Assembly: GCA_903851035.1 (NCBI GenBank)
Contig: CAINND010000009.1
Span: 1 to 64,000, forward strand
DNA from: an uncultured Acidobacteriota bacterium
Lineage (GTDB): Bacteria; Acidobacteriota; Terriglobia; Terriglobales; Acidobacteriaceae
Direction of reading: 5' to 3'
DNA length: 64,000 nucleotides
How positions within the stretch are numbered: position 1 is the first letter of the stretch; every line of letters starts with the position of its first letter. The translations under genes were made by a program, and so were the position numbers. Shown piece by piece: positions 6,541 to 48,089 of this stretch. The notes beneath the pieces were generated by a model, which was not told where the DNA came from, did no database searches, and was given only the letters and a program-made list of their open reading frames with translations.

Positions 6541-9500
6541 ATGTGTTGTGTAGTGCGCAGTTCAGGCGCGTCTTGCGCCCGGAGGCTCGCAGTGCCCAGC
6601 CGTTGCCGCCCCATCCTGCAATACCTGTGTTTATTTACCGTCCTTACCGCGCCCCTGTGGGCGCAGACCAGCCTGAGCGGTGCATTAGGCGGAGTGGTTC
6701 GCGACGCGCATGGCGCAGCCGTGGCCGCTGCGCGCATAACAGCCGTGAACCACGAGACCGGCGAGCGCGTGGAGGTGCAGTCCGGGGAGGACGGCGCTTA
6801 CCGCTTCCTGGACCTGAAGCCCGGCGGCTATCGCCTGCGGGTTACGGCCACGGGCTTTGCCGAATGGCTGCTGGAACGCGCCACGGTGGAGGTGGGACGC
6901 CGTACCGAGGTTGCGGTTGCGCTCAACGTGGCCGGACACAAGGAGACGGTGGAGGTGCGCGAACAGGCTCCGGCGGTGAACACCGCTACGCCGGATTTTT
7001 CCAGCAACCTGACCACGGCGACGCTCGACCACCTGCCGATCAACGGACGGCGCTGGTCGAACTTTGTGCTGCTGACGCCGGGTGCGAACCTGGATGGCGA
7101 CTTCGGACTGATCAGCTTTCGCGGCATCAGCGGCCTGCTGAATAACAGCATGGTGGACGGCGCGGACAACAACCAGGCCTTCTTTAGCGAAGAGCGCGGA
7201 CGCACCCGCATCAGCTACGTCATCAGCCAGGCTTCGGTGCGTGAGTTCCAGGTAAACACCGCGAACTTTGGCGCCGAGTACGGACGTGCCGCCGGAGCGG
7301 TGGTCAACGCGGTGACGCGCAGCGGTGGAGAGCGCTTCCACGGCCATATTTTTTATTACGACCGCGACAATGCGCTGGGCGCGACCAATGCATTTACCGT
7401 GGTTCCGGTGCAGGTGAATGGCGCGTGGACGACCGAGCACGTGAAGCCGCTGGACCGCCGTCAGCAGTTGGGCGGAGCCGTGAGCGGGCCGATTGTGACC
7501 AGCTCCATTCCGAAGGACAAGCTGTTCTACTACGCCTCCGCCGACGTGCAGAGGAGAGATTATCCGGGCGTGGCCGCGGCGGGGAATCCATCGCGGCTGT
7601 TTGCGCTGCCCTGCGTCATTCGCTCGCACTACAACGGCATGAGCGTGGCCAACCGCGCGCTGGTGCAGGTGTGCACCTACGACGAACTGTACACGCTGAC
7701 GCGCAACGTGATGCCGCTGTACAGCACGGACTCGCAGGCGATTGCCGCTTTTAACGCGGGCATTCAGTATCTGGATTATTTGCTGGGGCAGGTGCCGCGC
7801 AGGGCCGATCACCAGATCTACTTCGGGCGGGTGGATTACAAGCTGCGTCCGCGCCATGCCGTGGCCGTGACATATAACCACGTGAGCTGGGGCTCGCCGG
7901 CCGGCGTGCAGACCGAGCCGGTTGTGGAGCGCGGCGTGGCCAGCTTTGGCTACAGCGGCGTGCAGGTGGACATGCTGACGGCGCGGCTGACCAGCATCCT
8001 GAACAGTCACCTGACCAGCCAGTTGCGCTACAGCCTGAGCCGCGACTTCGAGTACCAGACGCCGCAAAAACCCGCGCCGGGCGAGCCCGTGGGAGCCAAC
8101 GGCCTGGCTCCGCAGGTGGATGTGCTCAGTGACAGCAGCGGCTTCAGCTTTGGCACGCCGGCCACCATGCCGCGCCGCGCGCTGCCGGACGAGTTGCGCA
8201 ATGAGGTGGCGGAGACCGTGAGCTGGATGCACCATCGCCACCTTTTTAAGTTCGGTGGTGACCTGAACATTGTGCGCGACCGGATGAACAACCTGTATGC
8301 CGCAAACGGTGCCTTCAGCTATGGCTATCGCGATGACTTCTTCGCCGATCTGTACCAATGGCAGAACCAGACGGGAACGCTCTTCCGAGGCTACTCCAGC
8401 TTTGACCAGGGCTTTGGCCCGGCGGCGTGGAGCTTCCACACCGTGGACACGGCGTTGTTTGTGCAGGATGAGTGGCGCGTAGCGCGGCGGCTGGTGCTGA
8501 GCTATGGTCTGCGCTGGGAGCACGAGGCGATGCCCGCGCCGCAGGCTCCCAATGTGCTGCTGCCGGCAACGCAGAGCCTCCCGGCGTTTTACGGCAACTT
8601 TGGACCGCGCTTTGGATTTGCCTGGGACCCGTGGGGAACGGGAAAGACGGCGGTGCGTGGCGGCTACGGAATCTTCTACGCGCGCATCAACAATTCGACG
8701 ATCAGCTCCGCGCTGACCAACACGGGAGCAGCAACGGCGCAGCGCACCTACCAGTTCTGCTACACCGTCACCACTTACTGCGGGCTGGTGGGTCCCATCT
8801 TTCCGAATCTTGTGGCGGGCGATCCCTACAACACTACCCTGGGCGGCAACGTAGTGGAGTTTGCACGCAACATGCGCGAGCCTTCGATTCAGCAGGCCGA
8901 CCTGATTGTGGAGCGGCAGGTGGCGCACAACACGGTACTTTCCGCCAGCTACCTGCTGAGCCTGGCCCGCGAATTGCCCAACTTTATTGACACGAACCTT
9001 GATCCGGCGAGCCGTGTAAATGTGCAGTACACCTTTGACGCCGACTACTACACCGGAGCGCAGGGGCCTTACTACGGACACAAGCTGATCGTTCCGGTGT
9101 ACAAGTCGCGGCTGAACCCGGCGTTTCAGACCATCACGGAGATACGCAGCAACGTGAATGCCAGCTACAACGCATTCGTGGTGCAACTGCACAAGGTGTC
9201 CAGCGCGGGGCTGGGCTTCCGCGTGAACTACACGTGGTCGCACGCGTTGGACAACAACCAGAGCTCGACGACCTTTACGACTTACAACAACACGCTGAGC
9301 CCAGCGCCGTTCACCTACTACTACGACGGGGTGGCGCACACGGTGACCAGACCGGACTACGGCAACTCGACGTTCGATGTGCGGCAGCGGCTGAACGCCA
9401 GTTTGCACTGGTCTCCCAGGCCGTTGCGCCACCGGCATGGCGCGATGCACACGGCGCTGAACCACTGGACGATCTCGCCGATTGTGCAGGTGGCTACGGG

Positions 9501-9873
9501 AAGGCCTTTCAGCGAGTACGTCAGCGGCAATCCTCCGGTGAGCACCTGCGCGGGATGCCTGGGCTACATGGGCACGGGAGGCAATCAGCGGCTGCCGTTT
9601 TTGCAACGCAACAGCTTCCGCATGGGAGACTTTTACAACGTGGACCTGCGCCTGCTGCGCCGCATCCGCATCAACGAGCATCAGCATGTTGAGCTGCTGG
9701 CCGAAGCCTTCAACCTCTTCAACCACCAGAACATCACCAGCCGCAGCCACACCTACTACACGGTGTACAAGAGCACGCTGGAGTACGACTCCAACTTTGA
9801 CACACCGACCGCCGCGGCCAACACGATTTATCGCGAGCGCGAGGTGCAGTTGGGGGTGAGGTGGTACTTCTAG
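6541..9873 (+). CDS. TonB-dependent receptor with N-terminal carboxypeptidase-regulatory-like domain (Oar-like)
   Basis: Hydrophobic leader ending APLWAQ, GGVVRDAHGAAVAAARITAVNHETG, plug VPL...INGRRWSNFVLLTPG, beta-barrel with C-terminal WYF. ORF-track start (5821) runs antisense through mutL; start placed near 6541. Confidence 0.88.
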   Translation: MCCVVRSSGASCARRLAVPSRCRPILQYLCLFTVLTAPLWAQTSLSGALGGVVRDAHGAAVAAARITAVNHETGERVEVQSGEDGAYRFLDLKPGGYRLRVTATGFAEWLLERATVEVGRRTEVAVALNVAGHKETVEVREQAPAVNTATPDFSSNLTTATLDHLPINGRRWSNFVLLTPGANLDGDFGLISFRGISGLLNNSMVDGADNNQAFFSEERGRTRISYVISQASVREFQVNTANFGAEYGRAAGAVVNAVTRSGGERFHGHIFYYDRDNALGATNAFTVVPVQVNGAWTTEHVKPLDRRQQLGGAVSGPIVTSSIPKDKLFYYASADVQRRDYPGVAAAGNPSRLFALPCVIRSHYNGMSVANRALVQVCTYDELYTLTRNVMPLYSTDSQAIAAFNAGIQYLDYLLGQVPRRADHQIYFGRVDYKLRPRHAVAVTYNHVSWGSPAGVQTEPVVERGVASFGYSGVQVDMLTARLTSILNSHLTSQLRYSLSRDFEYQTPQKPAPGEPVGANGLAPQVDVLSDSSGFSFGTPATMPRRALPDELRNEVAETVSWMHHRHLFKFGGDLNIVRDRMNNLYAANGAFSYGYRDDFFADLYQWQNQTGTLFRGYSSFDQGFGPAAWSFHTVDTALFVQDEWRVARRLVLSYGLRWEHEAMPAPQAPNVLLPATQSLPAFYGNFGPRFGFAWDPWGTGKTAVRGGYGIFYARINNSTISSALTNTGAATAQRTYQFCYTVTTYCGLVGPIFPNLVAGDPYNTTLGGNVVEFARNMREPSIQQADLIVERQVAHNTVLSASYLLSLARELPNFIDTNLDPASRVNVQYTFDADYYTGAQGPYYGHKLIVPVYKSRLNPAFQTITEIRSNVNASYNAFVVQLHKVSSAGLGFRVNYTWSHALDNNQSSTTFTTYNNTLSPAPFTYYYDGVAHTVTRPDYGNSTFDVRQRLNASLHWSPRPLRHRHGAMHTALNHWTISPIVQVATGRPFSEYVSGNPPVSTCAGCLGYMGTGGNQRLPFLQRNSFRMGDFYNVDLRLLRRIRINEHQHVELLAEAFNLFNHQNITSRSHTYYTVYKSTLEYDSNFDTPTAAANTIYREREVQLGVRWYF

Positions 9874-36193: not shown

Positions 36194-37954
36194 TTGTCAC
36201 TCGCTGGACAATCGTTTACCTGGATTCGGAAGACTCTTCGCAGCGCCGCTCACTGCGTCCTGCTGCTGGCCGCGCTTATTGCGTCACTGCCCACGCCTGC
36301 GGCCGCGCAGAGTTCCACCACTGCGGCCATGCCTGCCAACCGTTACGCCGCCGCCGATGACTGGTGGAAGCACTCGGTTATCTACGAGCTGTATCCGCGC
36401 AGCTTTGCCGACAGCAACAACGACGGCACGGGCGACCTGAACGGCATCACCGCGCACCTGGACTACCTGCAACAACTCGGCGTGGATGCCGTCTGGCTGA
36501 CTCCCATGTTTCCCTCGCCGCAGGTGGACTTCGGCTACGACGTCAGCGACTATCGCAACGTTGATCCGCAGTACGGAACGCTCAAGGACTTCGACCGCCT
36601 GGTCAGCGAGGCCAGGAAGCGCAACATCAAGATCGTTCTCGATTTTGTGGTCAACCACAGCAGCGACCAGCACAAGTGGTTCAAGGAGTCGCGCAGCTCG
36701 CGCACGAACCGCTACCGCGATTTCTACATCTGGCGCGATGGCCGCGCGGCGAATGAGCCGCCCAACAACTGGCGCAGCCTCTTCGGCGGGCCCAGTTGGA
36801 AGCTGGATGCGACCACTGGGCAGTATTACTATCACTTCTTCTACCCTGAGCAGCCCGACCTGAATTGGCGCAACCCGAAAGTCGAGCGCGAAATGTTCAA
36901 CACCATGCGCTGGTGGTTCAAGCGCGGGGTCTACGGCTTCCGGCTGGATGCCGTGGACGTGCTCTACGAAGACCCGAAGCTCAAGGACAATCCCATACTG
37001 GAGGGCACCGACTCCTACGGCGGTCCTAAGCAGGATCACATCTACGATCACAGCATTCCCGAGGTGCACGCAGCCTTGCAGCGCATGCGCAAGGTGGTGG
37101 ATGAATATCCCGGACGCGTGCTGATTGGCGAGACCTGGACGAGCACCACAAAGGAGTTGGCTGAGTACTACGGCCCGCACAACGACGAGCTGCAAATGCC
37201 CATGTACTTCAACTTCACCACCATCAATAAGCTCGACGCGGAGAAATTCCGCGAGCGCATTGAAGCCGTGGAGACGAACGATGCCGGGGGATGGCCGGTC
37301 TTCGTGCTCAGCAATCACGACATCGTGCGCCAGGTGGACCGCTACACTCCCGCGGGCGCGGACAAAGATCAGGTGGGGCGGCTGCTGGCCGCGCTCTACC
37401 TCACGCTGCGCGGCACGCCCATCATGTACATGGGTGAGGAACTCGGCATGCGCAACAACGATCCCACGCGGCGTGAGGATGTGAAGGACATCATCGGCCG
37501 GTTGGCCTGGCCAAAGGACAAAGGCCGCGATGGCGAGCGCACTCCCATGCAGTGGGACGCCACGGTGAATGCCGGATTCAACACGGGTGCTGCAACATGG
37601 TTGCCCGTGGGCGCCGATTACAAGACGCGCAACGTGGCTGCGGAATCGGCCGATCCCGCATCGGTGCTGAACTGGTATCGCCGCCTGATTGCGCTGCGAC
37701 GCACTGTGCCGGCCCTGAGCGAAGGCGACTACCGCACGCTGCCGGTGAGCGACAAGAATCTACTGGCCTTTTCTCGCACGGCCATGGGCAAGACAGTGGT
37801 GGTGCTGCTGAACATGAGCGGCGAGGAGCAGTCGGTGTCGCTGGCCGATGTAGCACCGCGCGGATTGCGTGGGCTGGCCGCCACCGCAGCCACGGTGAGT
37901 GGCGCGCAGGTAAAGCTCTCCGCCTATGGTGCCGTGGTGGCGGAGGTCGAGTAG
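36194..37954 (+). CDS. Secreted GH13 alpha-glucosidase
   Basis: Signal peptide; WWKHSVIYELYPRSFADSNNDGTGDLNGI; GFRLDAVD; LIGETW; LSNHDIVR. Confidence 0.93.
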   Translation: MSLAGQSFTWIRKTLRSAAHCVLLLAALIASLPTPAAAQSSTTAAMPANRYAAADDWWKHSVIYELYPRSFADSNNDGTGDLNGITAHLDYLQQLGVDAVWLTPMFPSPQVDFGYDVSDYRNVDPQYGTLKDFDRLVSEARKRNIKIVLDFVVNHSSDQHKWFKESRSSRTNRYRDFYIWRDGRAANEPPNNWRSLFGGPSWKLDATTGQYYYHFFYPEQPDLNWRNPKVEREMFNTMRWWFKRGVYGFRLDAVDVLYEDPKLKDNPILEGTDSYGGPKQDHIYDHSIPEVHAALQRMRKVVDEYPGRVLIGETWTSTTKELAEYYGPHNDELQMPMYFNFTTINKLDAEKFRERIEAVETNDAGGWPVFVLSNHDIVRQVDRYTPAGADKDQVGRLLAALYLTLRGTPIMYMGEELGMRNNDPTRREDVKDIIGRLAWPKDKGRDGERTPMQWDATVNAGFNTGAATWLPVGADYKTRNVAAESADPASVLNWYRRLIALRRTVPALSEGDYRTLPVSDKNLLAFSRTAMGKTVVVLLNMSGEEQSVSLADVAPRGLRGLAATAATVSGAQVKLSAYGAVVAEVE

Positions 37955-38059: not shown

Positions 38060-39592
38060 ATGCGATTTGCGCGTAGCTGCGGAGTGCTGCTTCATCCCAC
38101 CTCGTTGCCCGGCCCTTACGGCTGCGGCGACCTGGGGCCGGAGGCCTTCGCATTTCTCGACTTTCTCAGCGCGGCTGGCCAGAAGATATGGCAGGTGCTG
38201 CCGCTGAATCCCACCGGCTACGGCGACTCGCCCTATCAGTGCTTCTCGGCCTTTGCCGGCAACCCGCTACTCATCAGCCTGGATCGCCTGGTCGAGCAGG
38301 GTCTGCTCAGCCAATCTGACCTTGCCGACCTGCCCGCGTTCCCGGCGCGCACAGTGGATTACGGCCCGGTGATTGCCTGGCGCATGGGCAAACTGCGGCT
38401 GGCCGCGCAGCGCTTTTTCGCCGCCCTTGCAGCCGCGCCCGCTGGTCCGCGTCAGGTTGAGTACGACACCTTCCGCACGCAGCACGCCGCGTGGCTTGAC
38501 GACTTTGCGCTCTTCATGGCCGCCAAAGATGCGCACGGCGGCGTGGCCTGGAATCGCTGGGAGCCCGACTTGGCCGCTCGCGAGCCGAAGGCCCTGGAGC
38601 GCTGGCGCAAGCATCTTGCCAAGGGCATTGCCGAGCACACCTTCTGGCAGTTCGAATTCTTCCGCCAGTGGAGCACCCTGCGCGCGGAGTGTACCCGCCG
38701 CGGCATTCGCGTAATGGGCGACGTGCCCATCTACGTGGCGCACGATAGCGCCGACGTGTGGACGGCGCGCGAGTACTTTTGGCTGGACGAGGCCGGCAAC
38801 CCGACGCGCGTCAGCGGCGTGCCGCCGGATTACTTCAGCGCCACCGGACAGCTCTGGGGCAATCCCACCTATCGCTGGCCAAAGCTGCAGCAGGATGGTT
38901 TCCGCTGGTGGATTGCCCGCATGCGGGGCGTGCTGGCCATGTATGACATGGTGAGGGTCGATCACTTCCGCGGCTTTGAGGCCTACTACGAAATTTCCGC
39001 CAGCGAGAAGACAGCGGCCAACGGCGTCTGGATCAAGGCTCCCGGCGTGGAGCTGTTTGACACGCTGGTGCGCGAGTTGGGCGAGCTGCCCATCGTCGCC
39101 GAAAACCTCGGCAACATCACGCCGGAGGTCGAGGCCATCCGCACCCGCTTCGGACTGCCCGGCATGGCCATCCTGCAATTCGCCTTCGGCACCGATCCGC
39201 AGGCGCCATCGTTCCGCCCGCACAACTACGAGCGCCACCTGGTGGCCTACACCGGCGGACACGACAACGACACGGCCATCGGCTGGTGGACCAGTGGCAT
39301 TGGCGACAGCACACGCAGCGAGAAGGAGTTGCGCGAGGAGTATGAGCTGGCCAGCGGCTATCTTGGCCTGCATGGCGAGCCGCTGAACTGGGCGATGATC
39401 CGCACCCTGCTGGCTAGCGTGGCCGATACGACGCTCATCCCCATGCAGGATGTGCTGGGGCTGGGCGGCGAGGCGCGCATGAACCTGCCGGGACGCATGG
39501 GCGGCAATTGGCGCTGGCGCTACCAGCAAGAGCAACTGCAGCCGGAGATGATCGAACGCCTGGCTGCGCTGGTGCGGCTGTATCAGCGGTGA
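38060..39592 (+). CDS. malQ: 4-alpha-glucanotransferase (amylomaltase)
   Basis: GVLLHPTSLPGPYGCGDLGPEAFAFLDFL...QVLPLNPTGYGDSPYQCFSAFAGNPLLISL. Confidence 0.96.
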   Translation: MRFARSCGVLLHPTSLPGPYGCGDLGPEAFAFLDFLSAAGQKIWQVLPLNPTGYGDSPYQCFSAFAGNPLLISLDRLVEQGLLSQSDLADLPAFPARTVDYGPVIAWRMGKLRLAAQRFFAALAAAPAGPRQVEYDTFRTQHAAWLDDFALFMAAKDAHGGVAWNRWEPDLAAREPKALERWRKHLAKGIAEHTFWQFEFFRQWSTLRAECTRRGIRVMGDVPIYVAHDSADVWTAREYFWLDEAGNPTRVSGVPPDYFSATGQLWGNPTYRWPKLQQDGFRWWIARMRGVLAMYDMVRVDHFRGFEAYYEISASEKTAANGVWIKAPGVELFDTLVRELGELPIVAENLGNITPEVEAIRTRFGLPGMAILQFAFGTDPQAPSFRPHNYERHLVAYTGGHDNDTAIGWWTSGIGDSTRSEKELREEYELASGYLGLHGEPLNWAMIRTLLASVADTTLIPMQDVLGLGGEARMNLPGRMGGNWRWRYQQEQLQPEMIERLAALVRLYQR

Positions 39593-39656
39593 GCAGGATT
39601 TGATTTCCACGCGGAGCCGGGCCGTTGCGCTCCTCCGCCAAGGCAGGGAACGACTG

Positions 39657-40982
39657 ATGAACCGACCGCGCCGCAACGTCTGGCAGATCTTCAACATGAG
39701 CTTCGGCTTCTTCGGCATCCAGATTGGCTGGAATCTGCAGATGGCCAACATGAGCGCCATCTACGAGTACCTGGGCGCCAAGGCCGATCAGATTCCCATC
39801 CTCTGGCTGGCCGCGCCGCTCACCGGACTGCTGGTGCAGCCGCTTATCGGCCATGCCAGCGACCACACCTGGGGACGCCTGGGACGCCGCCGTCCGTACT
39901 TTTTGGCCGGAGCCATCCTCAGCTCGATCGCGCTCATCCTGATGCCGCAATCCGGTGCCCTGTGGATGGCCGCCGGGCTGCTGTGGGTGCTCGACGCTTC
40001 CATCAACATCAGCATGGAGCCCTTCCGCGCATTCGTCGCCGACATGCTGCCGGACGAGCAGCGCACCAGCGGCTTCGCCATGCAGAGCCTGCTCATCGGC
40101 CTGGGCGCGGTGCTGGCCAACCTGCTGCCCTGGCTGCTGACAAACTACTTTCACCTGCGCACGGAGTCCACCGGCGCGCACGCCATTCCGCTCACCGTGC
40201 GCCTGTCTTTCTACATCGGCGCCGCAGCGTTTCTCTCGGCCGTGCTGTGGACGATCTTCACCACCCCGGAGTATCCGCCCGAGGATATGGAGGCCTTCCG
40301 CCGCCAGAAGGCCGAGGCCGCCCGCACCGGGTACTTTGAGCGCATCGCCAACTCGCTGGCGGAGATCACCACGGCCATGCGGCAGATGCCGCCCGTGATG
40401 CGGGATCTCGCGCTGGTGCAGTTGCCCACGTGGCTGGGTCTGTTCTGCATGTGGCTGTATTTTCCCGTGGCGGTGGCGCACAACGTCTTTGGCGCCGTGG
40501 ATCAAAGCTCACCACAATTCACCCGCGGCGTGGAGTGGGCCGGGCTGTGCTTTGGCATGTACTCCGCCGTCTGCTTTGCTTTTTCTTTTGCGCTGCCCAC
40601 GCTGGCGCGCGTGCTGGGCCGACGCAACACGCACAGCCTTTGCCTTGCGGTGGGCGCCGCCGGATTGATCTCCGTGGCTTTCATCCACCAGCCCGCGATG
40701 CTCTTTCTCTCCATGACGGGCGTGGGCGTGGCCTGGGCCAGCATTTTGTCCATGCCATATGCGGTGCTTTCCGCCAGCCTGCCGCAGGAGCGCACCGGCG
40801 TGTACATGGGCATCTTCAACTTCTTCATCGTGCTGCCGGAGATCGTCGCCTCGCTGTGCTTTGGTCCGGTGATGAGCCATCTGATGCACAACAACCGCAT
40901 GGCAGCGGTCGTCGCCGGAGGCTTCTTCCTGCTGCTGGCCGCAGCCATGATGCAGCGCGTGCGCAGCCAGGCGAAGGCTTAG
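39657..40982 (+). CDS. MFS transporter (GPH/SLC45-like sugar transporter)
   Basis: FFGIQIGWNLQMANMSAIYEYLGAKADQIPILWLAAPLTGLLVQPLIGHASDHTWGRLGRRRPYFLAGA. Confidence 0.9.
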   Translation: MNRPRRNVWQIFNMSFGFFGIQIGWNLQMANMSAIYEYLGAKADQIPILWLAAPLTGLLVQPLIGHASDHTWGRLGRRRPYFLAGAILSSIALILMPQSGALWMAAGLLWVLDASINISMEPFRAFVADMLPDEQRTSGFAMQSLLIGLGAVLANLLPWLLTNYFHLRTESTGAHAIPLTVRLSFYIGAAAFLSAVLWTIFTTPEYPPEDMEAFRRQKAEAARTGYFERIANSLAEITTAMRQMPPVMRDLALVQLPTWLGLFCMWLYFPVAVAHNVFGAVDQSSPQFTRGVEWAGLCFGMYSAVCFAFSFALPTLARVLGRRNTHSLCLAVGAAGLISVAFIHQPAMLFLSMTGVGVAWASILSMPYAVLSASLPQERTGVYMGIFNFFIVLPEIVASLCFGPVMSHLMHNNRMAAVVAGGFFLLLAAAMMQRVRSQAKA

Positions 40983-41009: not shown

Positions 41010-41036
41010 ACGGGGCGCCGCGAGCGCCCTGTTTTA
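41010..41036 (+). terminator. Intrinsic terminator
   Basis: ggggcgccgcgagcgccctgtttta. Confidence 0.5.
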
Positions 41037-42320
41037 CTGGTCGGGATGCAGCGCGATGAGTGTGGTTTCCACCGGGACGCCGCGCGATATCTTGACGCGC
41101 AGCAGGGCCTCAAAGGGCTTCAGCTCTTCCACTTTCTTCGCGTTGAGCTTACCCAACAACTCCTCCAGCGTCTCCTTGTGGCATAGGAACTCCACCGCGC
41201 CCTGGGTGCCAAAGGTAGTGGTGCCGGCGATAATCAACACTAGTCTTGAGCTTTCCATCCCGCGCTTGTAGCCAATCACCGCATAGTCCTCCGCCAGGGC
41301 TTGGTCGGCGGGGCTGGCCAGCGACTGCAAGGGCTCACCCTGTTGCGGATTGATGGTGGCAATGGCCAGGTCGCCCTTGCGCGGGCCAACCGCCACGCGC
41401 TGAAAGACGAAGTGGCTGGTGCTGGGAATATCGCGCAGCGTCAGATTCTCCGCCGGCGAGCCCAGGAAGATCAGGTTGTTCTGCTTCAGGTCGTCGAGTG
41501 AAAACAGGCTTCCGCGTTTGACCCGTAGCGTGGCGTGCAGGCGGGAGAAGACCTCGTCCAGCTCATGTACGGCCAACACCTCGCCCACGCCCGTGTAGTG
41601 ATCAAAGACCTTGCCGGAGGCGGCATCCGTCGGCGTGGACGCGCTCGAGTAGCGCAGGCCGGTCTCCGGACGGCCAACAAAGGTCGCATTGCTGAATACC
41701 ACCCAGGGCTCATTGGCCGGCGCCAGAAAAGATCCCCAGAAGAGCTGGATGGATGGTGGAACCTTGTCTGCGGCCGCAGCGGGTTGCGCAGTGGGCGCCG
41801 ATCCTCTCCACAGCAACATGCCCAGGGTGGCAAGGGCCAGTGCCAGCAGCACGCTGAGCACAGGCACGGCATAGCGGGCCAGCCGGAGCCCGGCATCTAC
41901 ATTGGCCCCCTGTGGCGTGCGTTCGTGGTTGTGACCGTTGCCGTTGCCTTCCCCGGCAGCCTCCGCCTTGGCGCGGCGGGGATTCTCATGGAAGTGCAGG
42001 GTGTAGTTGCCCTTAGGCAGCTCTACCACGATGCGGTCTTCCGTGCCATCGCCTGCGTAGTAGGAGGCGAGCTTAGTGCGCAGGCGCCCGGCCTGCACGC
42101 GAATCACCGAGTCGAGCTGGGGGTCGAAGTCCTCCGAGCGGTGAAAGACCTCGGTGGCAATCTGGTACTCCTTGATGGTGGCGCCGGGGTGTTCCAGGGA
42201 CTGCTCGGCCAGGTAACGCAGCAGCTTACACAACGACTCGGAGTTGTGAAGTACCTCACTCCTCGCCAAGCGCTCGACCTGTTCCAGTACTGCCTCTCGA
42301 CTGAGCACGACAGGTATCAT
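41034..42320 (-). CDS. Membrane-anchored one-component regulator: N-terminal winged-helix domain, central TM helix, extracytoplasmic C-terminal domain
   Basis: IKEYQIATEVFHRSEDFDPQLDSVIRVQAGRLRTKLASYY...IVVELPKGNYTLHF; TM AVPVLSVLLALALATLGMLLW. ATG 42320 or 42347. Confidence 0.75.
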   Translation of the reverse strand: MIPVVLSREAVLEQVERLARSEVLHNSESLCKLLRYLAEQSLEHPGATIKEYQIATEVFHRSEDFDPQLDSVIRVQAGRLRTKLASYYAGDGTEDRIVVELPKGNYTLHFHENPRRAKAEAAGEGNGNGHNHERTPQGANVDAGLRLARYAVPVLSVLLALALATLGMLLWRGSAPTAQPAAAADKVPPSIQLFWGSFLAPANEPWVVFSNATFVGRPETGLRYSSASTPTDAASGKVFDHYTGVGEVLAVHELDEVFSRLHATLRVKRGSLFSLDDLKQNNLIFLGSPAENLTLRDIPSTSHFVFQRVAVGPRKGDLAIATINPQQGEPLQSLASPADQALAEDYAVIGYKRGMESSRLVLIIAGTTTFGTQGAVEFLCHKETLEELLGKLNAKKVEELKPFEALLRVKISRGVPVETTLIALHPDQ

Positions 42321-42707
42321 GTCACGGATGTAACGAAGATGAAACATTTTTTGCAAAGCATTGATAAAAAAGAGCTCTGCCAGGTTACTGTGACAAACCC
42401 GCCGAAACTTGTTTCTTTCCCTCCGCGGGATAAGACTCCGCAGTGGTTTTGTCATATCCAGTAGTGTTTTTTGTCCTCCGGACACGGTGTCCCATGCAGG
42501 CGCCAAACGGATGGCAAGCCCAGCCAGGGGGATTCGAAAGGTCTTTCTGGAAGGGAGTCAAAAGGTTCTTTGTTCAGGGTCGAGGTGCTTCCCGAAGCTG
42601 GAACGATGTTAGGACGGTAAAAGGATAAGACTATTCAAGTTCCGGTACACATTCTCCTCGATCGCTTTCTGTAACACTCGTTTTTGGACTTGATTCATGG
42701 AGGAACT

Positions 42708-45700
42708 ATGAAGCAGTTCGCCAAAATTTGTTTGCTGGTAGCGCTCGTGCTGCTGGTAACCGGCATTGCCGCCCTGGCGCAATCGGATTCGGCCCGCGTG
42801 GTCGGCACCGTGAGCGATCCTTCGGGCGCCGCAATTCCGGGCGCAACCGTCACCGTCACCAACCTGGGCACCAACCAGAAGATCACCACCCAGAGCCAGG
42901 CAGACGGCAATTTCGTTGTCACAGCTCTTAAGCCGGGCAATTACCGGGTCGAGGCCAAGAAGGAAGCCTTCAAGAGCGAAACCGCCAAGATCAGCCTGGA
43001 CATCGCCCAGGTGCAGCGCATCAACTTCAAGCTGCCGCTCGGCGCCGCCACGGAAACCATCAACGTGACCGATGAAGTGCCGATCGTGGAAACCTCCACC
43101 TCAACCCTCGGCGAAGTCATCCAGCCCCGGCAGATCTTGGATCTGGCGATCAACGGCAATAACTTCATCTCGCTGGCCACGCTGACACCGGGCGTGACCC
43201 GCGGCGCACCTGGCGATGAGGCCTCTGGCAGCTCCAGTCAGTCCGAGACCTGGCGTCACAATGAGAGCGGCGGCGGCGCGCTAAGCGTCAATGGCCTCCG
43301 CCCGCAAGCTACGTCCAATGTCATGGACGGCGTCAGTAACCAGGAGTACTTCGTCAACACCGTCGTCATCTTTCCAGTGACGGAATCCATCTCCGAATTC
43401 AAGGTGACCACCAGCACGGCGCCAGCCATGTATGGAGCGCCCTCGGTGATCGATGTCAGCACCATCAGTGGTGCCAACCAGGTTCATTTCCTGGGCGACT
43501 GGTTCCGTCGCGGCGGTGGCAACGCCAAGCCCTGGGGCAACCCTGACCCCGGCCCCTTTGCCCGCAACCAGTTCGGCGGCATCCTGAGCGGCCCGATCTG
43601 GAAGAACAAAGTCTTCGGCGCGTTGGACTACTACGGCTGGCGCCAGAAGAGCCCGCATCCGGATGGTCCGACCCACGTTCCCACCGCGCTGATGCGTGAT
43701 GGTAACTTCACCGAGTTGCTGACTGGCGGTTCCACGATCGCCACCTCGCTGCCGTACTCCGGCCTGCCCGGCTGCGCGGCCGCCATGGCCACAAACCCGA
43801 CAGCCTTCAATGCCGGCATGGGCTACATCTTCAACCCGGCCAACTGCCTGCCCTTCGGTTGGGATGCCGTGAACCACGTCCCCGGCAGCCAGATCAACAT
43901 CATCCCCACGGCCGGCCAGAACTCGGTCGGCATCAACTACCTGAAGGCCTTCCCGAATCCCAACATCGCTGGTGCCAACCCGGCGCTGTTGAACAACAAC
44001 TTCCTGCCCAACCGGGAAGACATTAAGACGCTGGATCAGTACGAAGCCCGTTTGGACTTTGTGGCGACGAAGAAGGACACCTTCTTTGCCCGCTACACTG
44101 CCGAGCAGGACCTGCTGCAAACCACTGACCGACTCCGCGATAGCGGCCACGATCTGCCCTCGGGCTTCGGCTCCGGCATGAACCCGCAGCATCCGCGTCA
44201 TTTGGCCGTGGGCTATACCCACATCCTGAACAACAACATGGTTAACGAGTTCCGTTACGGATACAACCGTCCGTACTACGGCTATCAGCAGCCCGGCTTC
44301 GGTGTCCCCGAGGCGGCCAATCTCGGCATCCCCAACGCCAACACCAGCCCGCTGCTGGGCGGCATGGCGCTGATCGGCGGCTGGAAGGGTGAACTCGAGT
44401 ACGTCGGCGATTACGGTCCGTACGTGGTTACTCAGAAGTACAACCAGTTTGCCGATACACTGAACTGGACGCGCAAGAATCACACCATGAAGTTCGGCGC
44501 CAGCCTCATCAAGAAGAACAGCGACTTCACCCAGGCCAACGTGGCCAAGGGCTACTTCTGGATTGACGACAACAACCTGCCGCAGTACTCCGGCTTCCCC
44601 GGCCAGTACGCCGGCTTCGGCACCTTTACCGGCAACGAAATCTCCGAGCTTGTGGGCGGCTTCATGGCGGCCTATCAGATCGGCGTTTTCAATGGCTATT
44701 ACAACACCAAGAACTGGGAAGCCAGCGGCTTTGCCCAGGATGACTGGCGCGTCAACCGCAAGCTGACCATCAACTACGGCATCCGTTACGACGTCTTCAC
44801 ATGGCCGTACGAAGCCAACAACAAGCAGTCGAATTTTGACCCCCTCAGCGGCACCTTGATTGTGGCCGGCACGCCCGGTTACAGCCGTTCGCTGGTCAGC
44901 ACCCCGTTGATGAACTTCTCTCCGCGCTTGGGCTTTGCCTATGACGTGAAGGGCGACGGCAAGATGGTGGTACGCGGCGGCTACGGCGTCTACTACTGGC
45001 AGGAACGTGGTGGCGTGGGCACGCAGCTCTCCAACAACCCGGATTTCAACGGCAGCCAGACCTACTATGCCTGCCCGAATTATCCGAATTGCAGTACCGG
45101 CTATCGCGCAACGCTGAGCGGCATGGCGCCTTACGGTTCCAATAACCCGAACAGCTCGGTGGCAAACGGCGCTCTGCCGGTGGGCCAGATTACCTTCGAT
45201 CCGACGCAGTTGGCCGGTGCCAACGTGATTTACTACCGGCCCAACTCGCCGAATTCCAACGTGCAGCAGTGGAATGTGCAGGTTGAGCACGCACTGGGCA
45301 AGAACACTTCGTTCAGCCTTGCCTACGTCGGCGCTCTGATGTCGCACCTCGCCACCAGCTTCAACGCCAATGGCGCCCAGATCTACTCGGGCTCGCATTG
45401 GTTCAACAACGTTGGCGCCATCAACGAGTACGCCATGGTGGGCGGCGGCAAGTACAACGGCCTGCAGGCTAATTTGAAGAGCAAGATGCATCACGGCCTG
45501 CAGTACAACGTTTCCTACACCTGGTCGCATACGTTGGATAACGTCAGCGGTGCGCTCAGCAACGGCGCCAACCCGATCTGGATTGGCTCCGGTGGTGATC
45601 CCGTCCTGAAGTACAGCTACGGCAACAGCAACACGGACCAGCGTCAGGTGCTGGGTGGATCCATGATGTACGAGCTGCCCTTCGGCAAGGGCCGCCAGTA

Positions 45701-46154
45701 CCTCAACAACATCCCCAAGGCCCTTGATTACGTCGTTGGCGGTTGGCAGTGGAACAACATTGTCACACTGGCCCGCGGCACACCGTGGAATATCACCCTG
45801 AACGGCTTGCAGCCGGATTACAACGGCGGTTGCAGCCTGGGACGCAAGGGCGATTACTGGATCACCTGCCCGGCAGGCACATTCACCGCGGCGCCTGCCC
45901 TCACACCCGGCAACCTGGCCCGCAACTACTTCTATGGGCCGCCGACCCGCATGTGGGACACCTCCATCTTCAAGTCCTTCATGGTGTACAAGGTCAAGAC
46001 GGAGATCCGGGCCAACCTGTTTAACGTACTCAACACTCCGCAGTTCGCTACGCCGAATGGCGAAGTGAGCAGCGGGTCGAGCTTCGGTCAGTTGAATACT
46101 CCGCTCAGTGAGAAGCAGCGTGAACTGGAGCTGATGCTTCGCATATCGTTCTAA
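42708..46154 (+). CDS. TonB-dependent receptor, Oar/carboxypeptidase-regulatory-like, predicted maltodextrin importer
   Basis: Signal peptide; GTVSDPSGAAIPGATVTVTNLGTNQKITTQSQADGNFVVTALKPGNYRVEA; VPIVETSTSTLGEVI; barrel ending LELMLRISF. Confidence 0.92.
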   Translation: MKQFAKICLLVALVLLVTGIAALAQSDSARVVGTVSDPSGAAIPGATVTVTNLGTNQKITTQSQADGNFVVTALKPGNYRVEAKKEAFKSETAKISLDIAQVQRINFKLPLGAATETINVTDEVPIVETSTSTLGEVIQPRQILDLAINGNNFISLATLTPGVTRGAPGDEASGSSSQSETWRHNESGGGALSVNGLRPQATSNVMDGVSNQEYFVNTVVIFPVTESISEFKVTTSTAPAMYGAPSVIDVSTISGANQVHFLGDWFRRGGGNAKPWGNPDPGPFARNQFGGILSGPIWKNKVFGALDYYGWRQKSPHPDGPTHVPTALMRDGNFTELLTGGSTIATSLPYSGLPGCAAAMATNPTAFNAGMGYIFNPANCLPFGWDAVNHVPGSQINIIPTAGQNSVGINYLKAFPNPNIAGANPALLNNNFLPNREDIKTLDQYEARLDFVATKKDTFFARYTAEQDLLQTTDRLRDSGHDLPSGFGSGMNPQHPRHLAVGYTHILNNNMVNEFRYGYNRPYYGYQQPGFGVPEAANLGIPNANTSPLLGGMALIGGWKGELEYVGDYGPYVVTQKYNQFADTLNWTRKNHTMKFGASLIKKNSDFTQANVAKGYFWIDDNNLPQYSGFPGQYAGFGTFTGNEISELVGGFMAAYQIGVFNGYYNTKNWEASGFAQDDWRVNRKLTINYGIRYDVFTWPYEANNKQSNFDPLSGTLIVAGTPGYSRSLVSTPLMNFSPRLGFAYDVKGDGKMVVRGGYGVYYWQERGGVGTQLSNNPDFNGSQTYYACPNYPNCSTGYRATLSGMAPYGSNNPNSSVANGALPVGQITFDPTQLAGANVIYYRPNSPNSNVQQWNVQVEHALGKNTSFSLAYVGALMSHLATSFNANGAQIYSGSHWFNNVGAINEYAMVGGGKYNGLQANLKSKMHHGLQYNVSYTWSHTLDNVSGALSNGANPIWIGSGGDPVLKYSYGNSNTDQRQVLGGSMMYELPFGKGRQYLNNIPKALDYVVGGWQWNNIVTLARGTPWNITLNGLQPDYNGGCSLGRKGDYWITCPAGTFTAAPALTPGNLARNYFYGPPTRMWDTSIFKSFMVYKVKTEIRANLFNVLNTPQFATPNGEVSSGSSFGQLNTPLSEKQRELELMLRISF

Positions 46155-46238: not shown

Positions 46239-48089
46239 ATGAAGCCCTCTCGTACCAGGCAGTACGCCATTTTTTCGCTTGTAATTCTACTGTCACTGCT
46301 CTCCGCGGCTTGGGCCCAGCCGCCGGTCATCACCAAGGTGGAGCCGCCTAACTGGTGGGTGGGGCTGCCGCATGATCCGCTGCTGCTTTTGACGGGCGAA
46401 AACCTGGGCGCGGCCCAGATCGCCACGCACTATCCCGGCATGACCGTGCAGCGCGTGCAGGCCAGCGCCGATGGCCACTACCTCTTCGCCCGCGTGCATA
46501 TCGACAAGACGGCGGCAGCCGGGCGCGCGCAGTTCAACGTGCGCTCCGCCAAAGGCGCGATCAAGGTAGACTGGCCGCTGGAAAAACGCGTCAAAGTGGC
46601 TGAGACCGGCAACGGCCTGCACACCGACGACATCCTCTACCTCATCATGCCGGACCGCTTCGCCAACGGCGACCCCACGAATGATGACCCTCCGCAGGCC
46701 ACGGTGAAGCACGACCGCACGGCCCCCAAGGGCTACCACGGCGGAGACCTGAAGGGCATTGAGCAGCATCTCGATTATTTGCAGGAGCTGGGCGTGACCG
46801 CCGTGTGGCTCACGCCCTGGTGGAAGAACTCCAGCAACGCCAGCGACTATCACGGCTATCACGTGACTGACTTTTACGCCGTGGATGAGCACTTAGGCAC
46901 CCTGGGCGAGTTGCAGCGCTTCGTCACTGCCGCCCACGCGCGCGGCATCAAGGTGGTCAGCGACTACGTTGCCAACCACATTGGCCCCGACCATCGCTGG
47001 GCCGACGATCCGCCAACGCCCACCTGGCTGCACGGCACCCGCGCCAATCATCTGGAACCGAAGTACGATTTCTGGCCGCTGGTGGACGTCCACTCCACGC
47101 CACGCGAGCGCCGTCCGGTCATCGAAGGCTGGTTTGCCGGCAAGTTGCCTGACCTGAATCCCGACGATCCGCTGCTGGAGGAGTACCTGGCGGATAACGC
47201 CATCTGGTGGATGGAGTCGGCACACTTCGACGCCTATCGCCTGGACACCTTCCCGTACTCCTCGCGCGAGTTCTGGGGACGCTGGCACCGCACACTGCGC
47301 CAGGTTTATCCCCGCGCCACCTCGGTGGGCGAGTGCTTTGACCTAAGCCCGGTGGTAACCAGCTACTTTGAAGGCGGGCGTAAGGTTCGCGGCGTGGATT
47401 CCGGCACAAACACGGTCTTCGACTTTCCGCTCTACGGCGGGCTACGTGCCGTGCTGGCGCACAATGAGCCGGTCGGCAAGCTGGTCAACATCTTCCAGCA
47501 CGACTATCTCTACCTGCATCCAGAGGGGCTGTACACCTTCTTTGGCAATCACGACCAGCCGCGGTTAATGAGCGAAAAAGGCGCGACCGTTGCCCGGTTG
47601 AAGGCGGCCTTCAGCCTGCTGCTCACGCTGCGCGGCATCCCCGGCATCTACTACGGCGATGAGATTGCCATGACCGGCGGCGACGACCCGGAGAACCGGC
47701 ACGACTTTCCCGGCGGCTGGCCCCAGGACGCGCGCAGCGCCTTCACCCAGGGTGGCCGAACGGCCACCGAGCAGGAGGTCTTTGCCCACGTGCAGCAGCT
47801 CAACCGGCTGCACCGCCAGCATCGCGCCCTGCAGGATGGCCGGATGACCACCCTCGCCTACAGCGATACATCCTTTGCCTATCTGCGCAGCCACGGTTCT
47901 GACCGCCTGCTGGTGGTATTGAATGCCGCGGAAAAGGCGCAAACCATTGATGTGAGCAAGGTTGACACGCCGCTTGCAGACATTGCTTCGGCCGCACCCA
48001 TGCTGGACGCAGGTCCCGTCACCGTGACGCCGGATAAGCTCACGGTGCAGGCGGCGCCCATGTCGGTTGCGATTTATAGCCTGAAGTAA
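46239..48089 (+). CDS. Secreted GH13 cyclomaltodextrinase/neopullulanase-like enzyme
   Basis: Signal peptide; N-terminal ITKVEPPNWWVGLPHDPLLLLTGENL; DDILYLIMPDRFANGDPTND; AYRLDTFPYS; FGNHDQPR. Confidence 0.93.
   Translation: MKPSRTRQYAIFSLVILLSLLSAAWAQPPVITKVEPPNWWVGLPHDPLLLLTGENLGAAQIATHYPGMTVQRVQASADGHYLFARVHIDKTAAAGRAQFNVRSAKGAIKVDWPLEKRVKVAETGNGLHTDDILYLIMPDRFANGDPTNDDPPQATVKHDRTAPKGYHGGDLKGIEQHLDYLQELGVTAVWLTPWWKNSSNASDYHGYHVTDFYAVDEHLGTLGELQRFVTAAHARGIKVVSDYVANHIGPDHRWADDPPTPTWLHGTRANHLEPKYDFWPLVDVHSTPRERRPVIEGWFAGKLPDLNPDDPLLEEYLADNAIWWMESAHFDAYRLDTFPYSSREFWGRWHRTLRQVYPRATSVGECFDLSPVVTSYFEGGRKVRGVDSGTNTVFDFPLYGGLRAVLAHNEPVGKLVNIFQHDYLYLHPEGLYTFFGNHDQPRLMSEKGATVARLKAAFSLLLTLRGIPGIYYGDEIAMTGGDDPENRHDFPGGWPQDARSAFTQGGRTATEQEVFAHVQQLNRLHRQHRALQDGRMTTLAYSDTSFAYLRSHGSDRLLVVLNAAEKAQTIDVSKVDTPLADIASAAPMLDAGPVTVTPDKLTVQAAPMSVAIYSLK

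Follow-up and report, generated by a model that had tools for sequence, protein, structure and literature searches.

How are the Oar-type TonB-dependent receptors of Acidobacteria controlled? These bacteria are abundant in soils, Oar-type receptor candidates number about 100 or more in some of their genomes, and in the open-access literature we found no account of how these receptors are regulated. A stretch of 64,000 nucleotides from an uncultured member of the Acidobacteriaceae, referred to here as the window, brings the question down to a single locus, in which a receptor gene lies divergent from the gene of a predicted membrane-anchored regulator. A preliminary description of the locus suggested that this protein may directly sense either a sugar in the periplasm or the state of the receptor. 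Both possibilities are weighed here, together with the DNA site on which the regulator would act.

A predicted regulator within a maltodextrin locus

The features of the locus are collected in Table 1. The regulator gene contains no internal stop codon. A mechanical open reading frame of 490 aa reaching 42506 was rejected, because its long start is not conserved and homologues begin near 42320; the two nearest homologues begin at the site equivalent to the possible alternative GTG. The gap between regulator and receptor measures 387 bp (399 bp when counted from the GTG), in line with the shared region of about 360–390 bp first proposed. At one homologous locus (L007, genome G035) the regulator orthologue has an in-frame TGA, possibly the mark of a decayed copy or an assembly error.

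Judged by their predicted functions, the surrounding genes look like a complete outer-membrane-to-cytoplasm route for maltodextrins. Those for GH13, GH77 and MFS proteins form a plus-strand run that ends 51 bp from the regulator stop codon. The complete gene order is conserved at one other locus (L031), and mostly so in other related genomes. No sigma or anti-sigma factor was found among the flanking genes scanned, and a Pfam scan of the receptor returned no STN domain, which agrees with the original suggestion of a system that works without a sigma/anti-sigma pair. In this respect the locus differs from FecA/FpvA-type signalling, which has both a receptor STN domain and sigma/anti-sigma genes. 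The window contains another Oar-type receptor (7312–9741, plus strand), which adjoins mutL and lacks a neighbouring regulator of this family.

Table 1. Coordinates of predicted features at the regulator–receptor locus (positions in the window).
Feature	Position	Strand	Basis
GH13 alpha-amylase-family enzyme, apparent signal peptide	36194..37954	+	Pfam; signal peptide by inspection
4-alpha-glucanotransferase (GH77, MalQ)	38060..39592	+	Domain scan
MFS sugar transporter, convergent with regulator	39600..40982	+	Pfam
Regulator CDS, 428 aa	41034..42320	-	ORF translation and homologue starts; alternative GTG start 42308
Putative periplasmic sensor domain, residues 186-428, no known family	41037..41765	-	Family and fold searches
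Single transmembrane helix, residues about 147-172	41805..41882	-	Hydrophobicity, AlphaFold model
Winged-helix DNA-binding domain, residues 8-112	41985..42299	-	Pfam, PDB profile search, AlphaFold model
Second repeat pair (box 2), GTTAC-n4-GTGAC, beside start codon	42321..42334	-	Intergenic conservation; 9-bp register here
Candidate operator box 1, GTTTC-n5-GTTTG-n5-GTAAC direct repeats, 10-bp spacing	42384..42408	-	Intergenic conservation
Oar-type TonB-dependent receptor (PF25183 + CarboxypepD_reg), ATG at 42708	42708..46154	+	Pfam
Cyclomaltodextrinase/neopullulanase-like GH13, apparent signal peptide	46239..48089	+	Pfam; signal peptide by inspection

Domain architecture of the regulator

For the N-terminal part of the protein, AlphaFold predicts a winged-helix fold made of helices at residues 8–19, 28–43, 51–57 and 72–89, followed by a beta-hairpin wing at 97–112, with pLDDT of about 92–98 across most of residues 11–110 that falls to about 78 at 61–70. 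The match of the window regulator to the Pfam family Trans_reg_C lies below the cut-off (E 0.035, 14.6 bits versus 26.2); 33 of 50 regulator homologues match the family, the best with an E of 1.4e-4. The top match in a PDB profile search, the OmpR-family protein RpaA, is weak (E 0.042), with an alignment that runs through the recognition helix. Only one hydrophobic segment is present in the regulator, and the N-terminal half would lie in the cytoplasm because the DNA-binding end must be there. This predicted arrangement fits a one-component transmembrane regulator, with DNA-binding domain and transmembrane helix in one chain.

The outer domain comprises 243 aa and is modelled as an alpha/beta fold (pLDDT 83, pTM 0.82). 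Searches of Pfam, NCBIfam and PDB found no significant relative by sequence, and a Foldseek comparison with PDB and viral structures gave nothing at E < 0.001. FHA and Trypsin_2 were rejected as identities, each being a weak match of one family member. There are three leads, and they should be read only as such: a weak alpha/beta resemblance to BcsB (Foldseek E 0.016, query TM-score at most 0.42), another to the N-domain of GH67 that likewise has no E < 0.001, and a profile of an S-layer outer domain, PF05124, that is sub-threshold in 12 of 49 family members. Distant paralogues keep a core of W195, Y224, D277, G287, N292, G366, T372, F403 and E404 and vary at 211, 217–223, 244–252 and 268–273, and the variable residues are candidate specificity positions. 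The segment 212–241 is highly conserved yet modelled as a low-confidence loop. Thus the winged helix, the single membrane helix and the outer domain of roughly 250 aa unlike known sensors, all claimed at the outset, agree with these predictions and searches.

Association with receptors across genomes

Comparison with other genomes bears out the link between regulator and receptor that the preliminary description implied. Eighty homologous loci were fetched (46–67% identity), of which 74 have at least 1.5 kb upstream. A divergent, adjacent receptor is present at 69 of these 74, which represent many species yet are not independent samples; at three more loci (L099, L103 and L107) the receptor lies about 1.7 kb off and runs in the same direction. 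A rough estimate from receptor counts puts the chance of finding a divergent adjacent receptor at ~0.2% here and ~1% in receptor-rich genomes. The genome from which the window comes contains a single such regulator and roughly a dozen receptors, and in the regions fetched the other receptors have no such regulator as a neighbour. By comparison, a first look at four genomes (G119, G196, G295 and G107), in which not all candidates were scored, gave more than 100 Oar-type receptor candidates in each.

The association with receptors follows the outer domain and not the DNA-binding domain. An explanation by the winged-helix domain alone was rejected, since none of 10 proteins from relatives that share only the DNA-binding domain with the regulator has a divergent adjacent receptor. 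The sample of 42 more distant sensor-domain proteins includes 41 that also have this DNA-binding domain; the receptor is divergent and adjacent for 22 of the 42 and directly downstream for several others. Of 297 genomes sampled from the phylum, 32 have members of the sensor family, and often many of them; the copy numbers are lower bounds, as at most nine candidates were scored per genome. One homologous locus (L091) lies on a contig labelled Betaproteobacteria; its regulator nests among those of group 2 Acidobacteria and has the same neighbourhood, so the genome is probably misbinned.

A candidate operator in the intergenic region

Conservation between loci highlights two sets of repeats in the gap. 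The first, box 1, has the consensus GTTTC-n5-GTTTG-n5-GTTAC and in most loci sits about 72–114 bp ahead of the regulator start. Autocorrelation of its columns, taken over 41 non-redundant copies, has peaks at lag 10 (0.39) and lag 20 (0.33). The second, box 2, consists of GTNAC-like repeats that straddle or abut the regulator start codon in most homologues, with peaks at lag 11 (0.46) and lag 22 (0.31). The pair in the window is 9 bp apart and departs from the 11-bp register of most homologues. Box 1 of the window agrees with 17 of 20 positions of a consensus that comes mainly from other loci, a level reached by none of 1000 shuffles. When a matrix was built without the window site, box 1 scored 19.8 bits and the next best site in the 64 kb scored 4.0. 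It is also the only site within 3 mismatches in the 3.26 Mb genome, and a wide regulon was set aside for lack of a second such site. The matrix scan of the 64 kb found no operator copy ahead of the GH13-MalQ-MFS operon.

Regulators of the OmpR/PhoB family are known to bind direct repeats as tandem dimers (PMC4832192), and so the predicted fold and the candidate operator agree independently. The distance of box 1 is constant to the regulator start and not to the receptor start; therefore its main job could be autoregulation. If the protein binds box 1, autoregulation is very likely to be part of the picture. A sigma-70 promoter scan of the gap gave none at the consensus threshold, and hence no promoter was placed relative to box 1. 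A terminator-like hairpin at 42425–42441 was discarded, being at chance level.

What the sensor may read and how the regulator may act

The regulator tree shows 7 changes of neighbourhood type, compared with 30.7 in shuffles, and none of 200 shuffles is as low. Maltodextrin loci group with those for GH15/glucodextranase, and sucrose-type loci (GH32, melibiase, PfkB) form their own group. The same sensor core serves loci for different sugars. Within the maltodextrin clade, loci L044 and L057 have sensors that are 89% identical beside receptor barrels at 39% and receptor N-termini at 55%, and these two appear to have undergone a receptor replacement inside a conserved locus. Such divergence of the barrel beside so similar a sensor argues that the barrel is not what the sensor reads. 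A periplasmic sugar is favoured as the signal, and receptor state disfavoured, because the alpha-glucan pathway appears complete, the regulator clade tracks the catabolic genes, and the sensor has not followed the divergence of the receptors.

On this basis, and with a little better than an even chance of being right, the protein is a SusR-like one-component switch, dedicated to the maltodextrin-uptake locus, that answers periplasmic alpha-glucan oligosaccharide and has autoregulation. In such a scheme the Oar receptor would bring in alpha-glucan oligosaccharide, which secreted GH13 enzymes would trim, and the outer domain would bind the oligosaccharide in the periplasm. Binding could alter how subunits pair across the single transmembrane helix, after which the cytoplasmic winged helices would align head to tail on the three 10-bp direct repeats in the gap. 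The aligned winged helices would raise transcription of the receptor, and expression of the regulator itself could be adjusted through the repeats beside its own start codon. What the analysis establishes is the architecture of the sequence, the content of the locus, the tie to receptors, and the conservation, spacing and uniqueness of the operator site; we infer DNA binding, the ligand, and activation rather than repression. Several observations count against this reading: box 1 keeps step with the regulator start and not with that of the receptor, the GH13-MalQ-MFS operon has no operator copy ahead of it, one sensor core serves loci for different sugars, the model is of low confidence at the highly conserved segment 212–241, and box 2 of the window departs from the 11-bp register.

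The other possibility raised at the outset, that the receptor itself is read, would have the outer domain contact the periplasmic N-terminal CarboxypepD domain of the loaded receptor and pass a signal across the envelope without sigma or anti-sigma factors. Near-universal receptor adjacency speaks for such contact, as does the receptor N-terminal segment, which correlates with the sensor (r 0.70) better than the barrel does (0.59) and which, at matched barrel divergence, reaches 55% identity where the sensors are alike, compared with 40–42% otherwise. However, this N-terminal excess could be explained equally well by recombination that keeps the 5′ end of the receptor gene linked to the shared gap. 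Pairing of closely similar sensors with the diverged L044 and L057 receptors also counts against it, as does the fact that about half of the distant family members have no divergent adjacent receptor, and we regard this contact as unlikely. Slightly more doubtful again is the full claim that one inner-membrane protein reads the occupancy of its partner Oar receptor directly, through the receptor N-terminal domain, and controls the receptor gene with no sigma/anti-sigma relay.

Two further alternatives concern how the regulator acts. It could serve chiefly to repress its own gene, or could repress both genes, with the ligand releasing it from DNA. In favour of repression, most loci have box 1 at a fixed distance of about 80–110 bp from where the regulator begins, and the position of box 2 at the start codon points the same way; however, box 1 is upstream of both genes, so that the layout fits activation too, and the promoter scan gave no promoter against which to place it. 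We regard repression as improbable. Alternatively, regulated proteolysis could free the N-terminal domain, as reported for CadC of Salmonella, a precedent among membrane one-component regulators (PMC7593790). The locus gives no sign of a dedicated protease, and we consider this route very improbable.

Relation to known systems

The preferred reading, a switch that answers a periplasmic sugar, has a counterpart in SusR of Bacteroides thetaiotaomicron, which reportedly senses periplasmic maltose and upregulates a starch locus whose genes include one for a TonB-dependent transporter (PMC11633381). The likeness is one of role, as suggested by locus content; SusR belongs to another phylum and works with another receptor type, and no SusD was seen at this locus. 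In layout, the protein resembles the ToxR-like receptors CadC and ToxR, with which it shares a predicted cytoplasmic N-terminal winged helix, a single transmembrane helix, a periplasmic sensor and the lack of a phosphorylation step. The analogy to ToxR/CadC drawn in the preliminary description therefore holds for layout and fails in the features tested. In CadC, the DNA-binding domain has a sheet of four strands at its N-terminus, and the target site is modelled as head-to-head (PMC5430869). In contrast, the window model opens with helices and has no N-terminal strands where OmpR-type domains, those of ToxR-like proteins included, have a beta1–beta4 sheet before alpha1, and the candidate operator is a tandem direct repeat. 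Furthermore, the Trans_reg_C match is under the Pfam cut-off, and the fold search placed the sensor with none of the ToxR-like sensor domains.

With OmpR/PhoB-family response regulators the regulator shares a predicted recognition helix and wing and a predicted direct-repeat operator of 10–11 bp, but it has no receiver domain, is membrane-anchored, and has no partner kinase that we could see. A DNA-binding domain and a transmembrane region in one protein are the common feature of transmembrane transcription regulators (TTRs), of which a survey notes relatively many in Acidobacteriae (PMC10269533). We found in that survey no description of the sensor domain, receptor pairing or operator of the present regulator, whose sub-threshold DNA-binding domain may have escaped it. 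The evidence fits a protein that is SusR-like in role, ToxR/CadC-like in layout, distinct from CadC in the features tested, and within the broad TTR class.

No description of this regulator family was found in the open-access literature. The family links receptors and catabolic genes to a sensor domain that matches no known family, and it offers a testable operator; the substrates of receptors would become predictable from the paired regulator and the neighbouring enzymes. Many non-maltodextrin loci, such as L034, L056 and L047, have genes for TPR, FG-GAP/UnbV-ASPIC, trehalase, GH130 or cytochrome-TPR proteins around the regulator–receptor pair.
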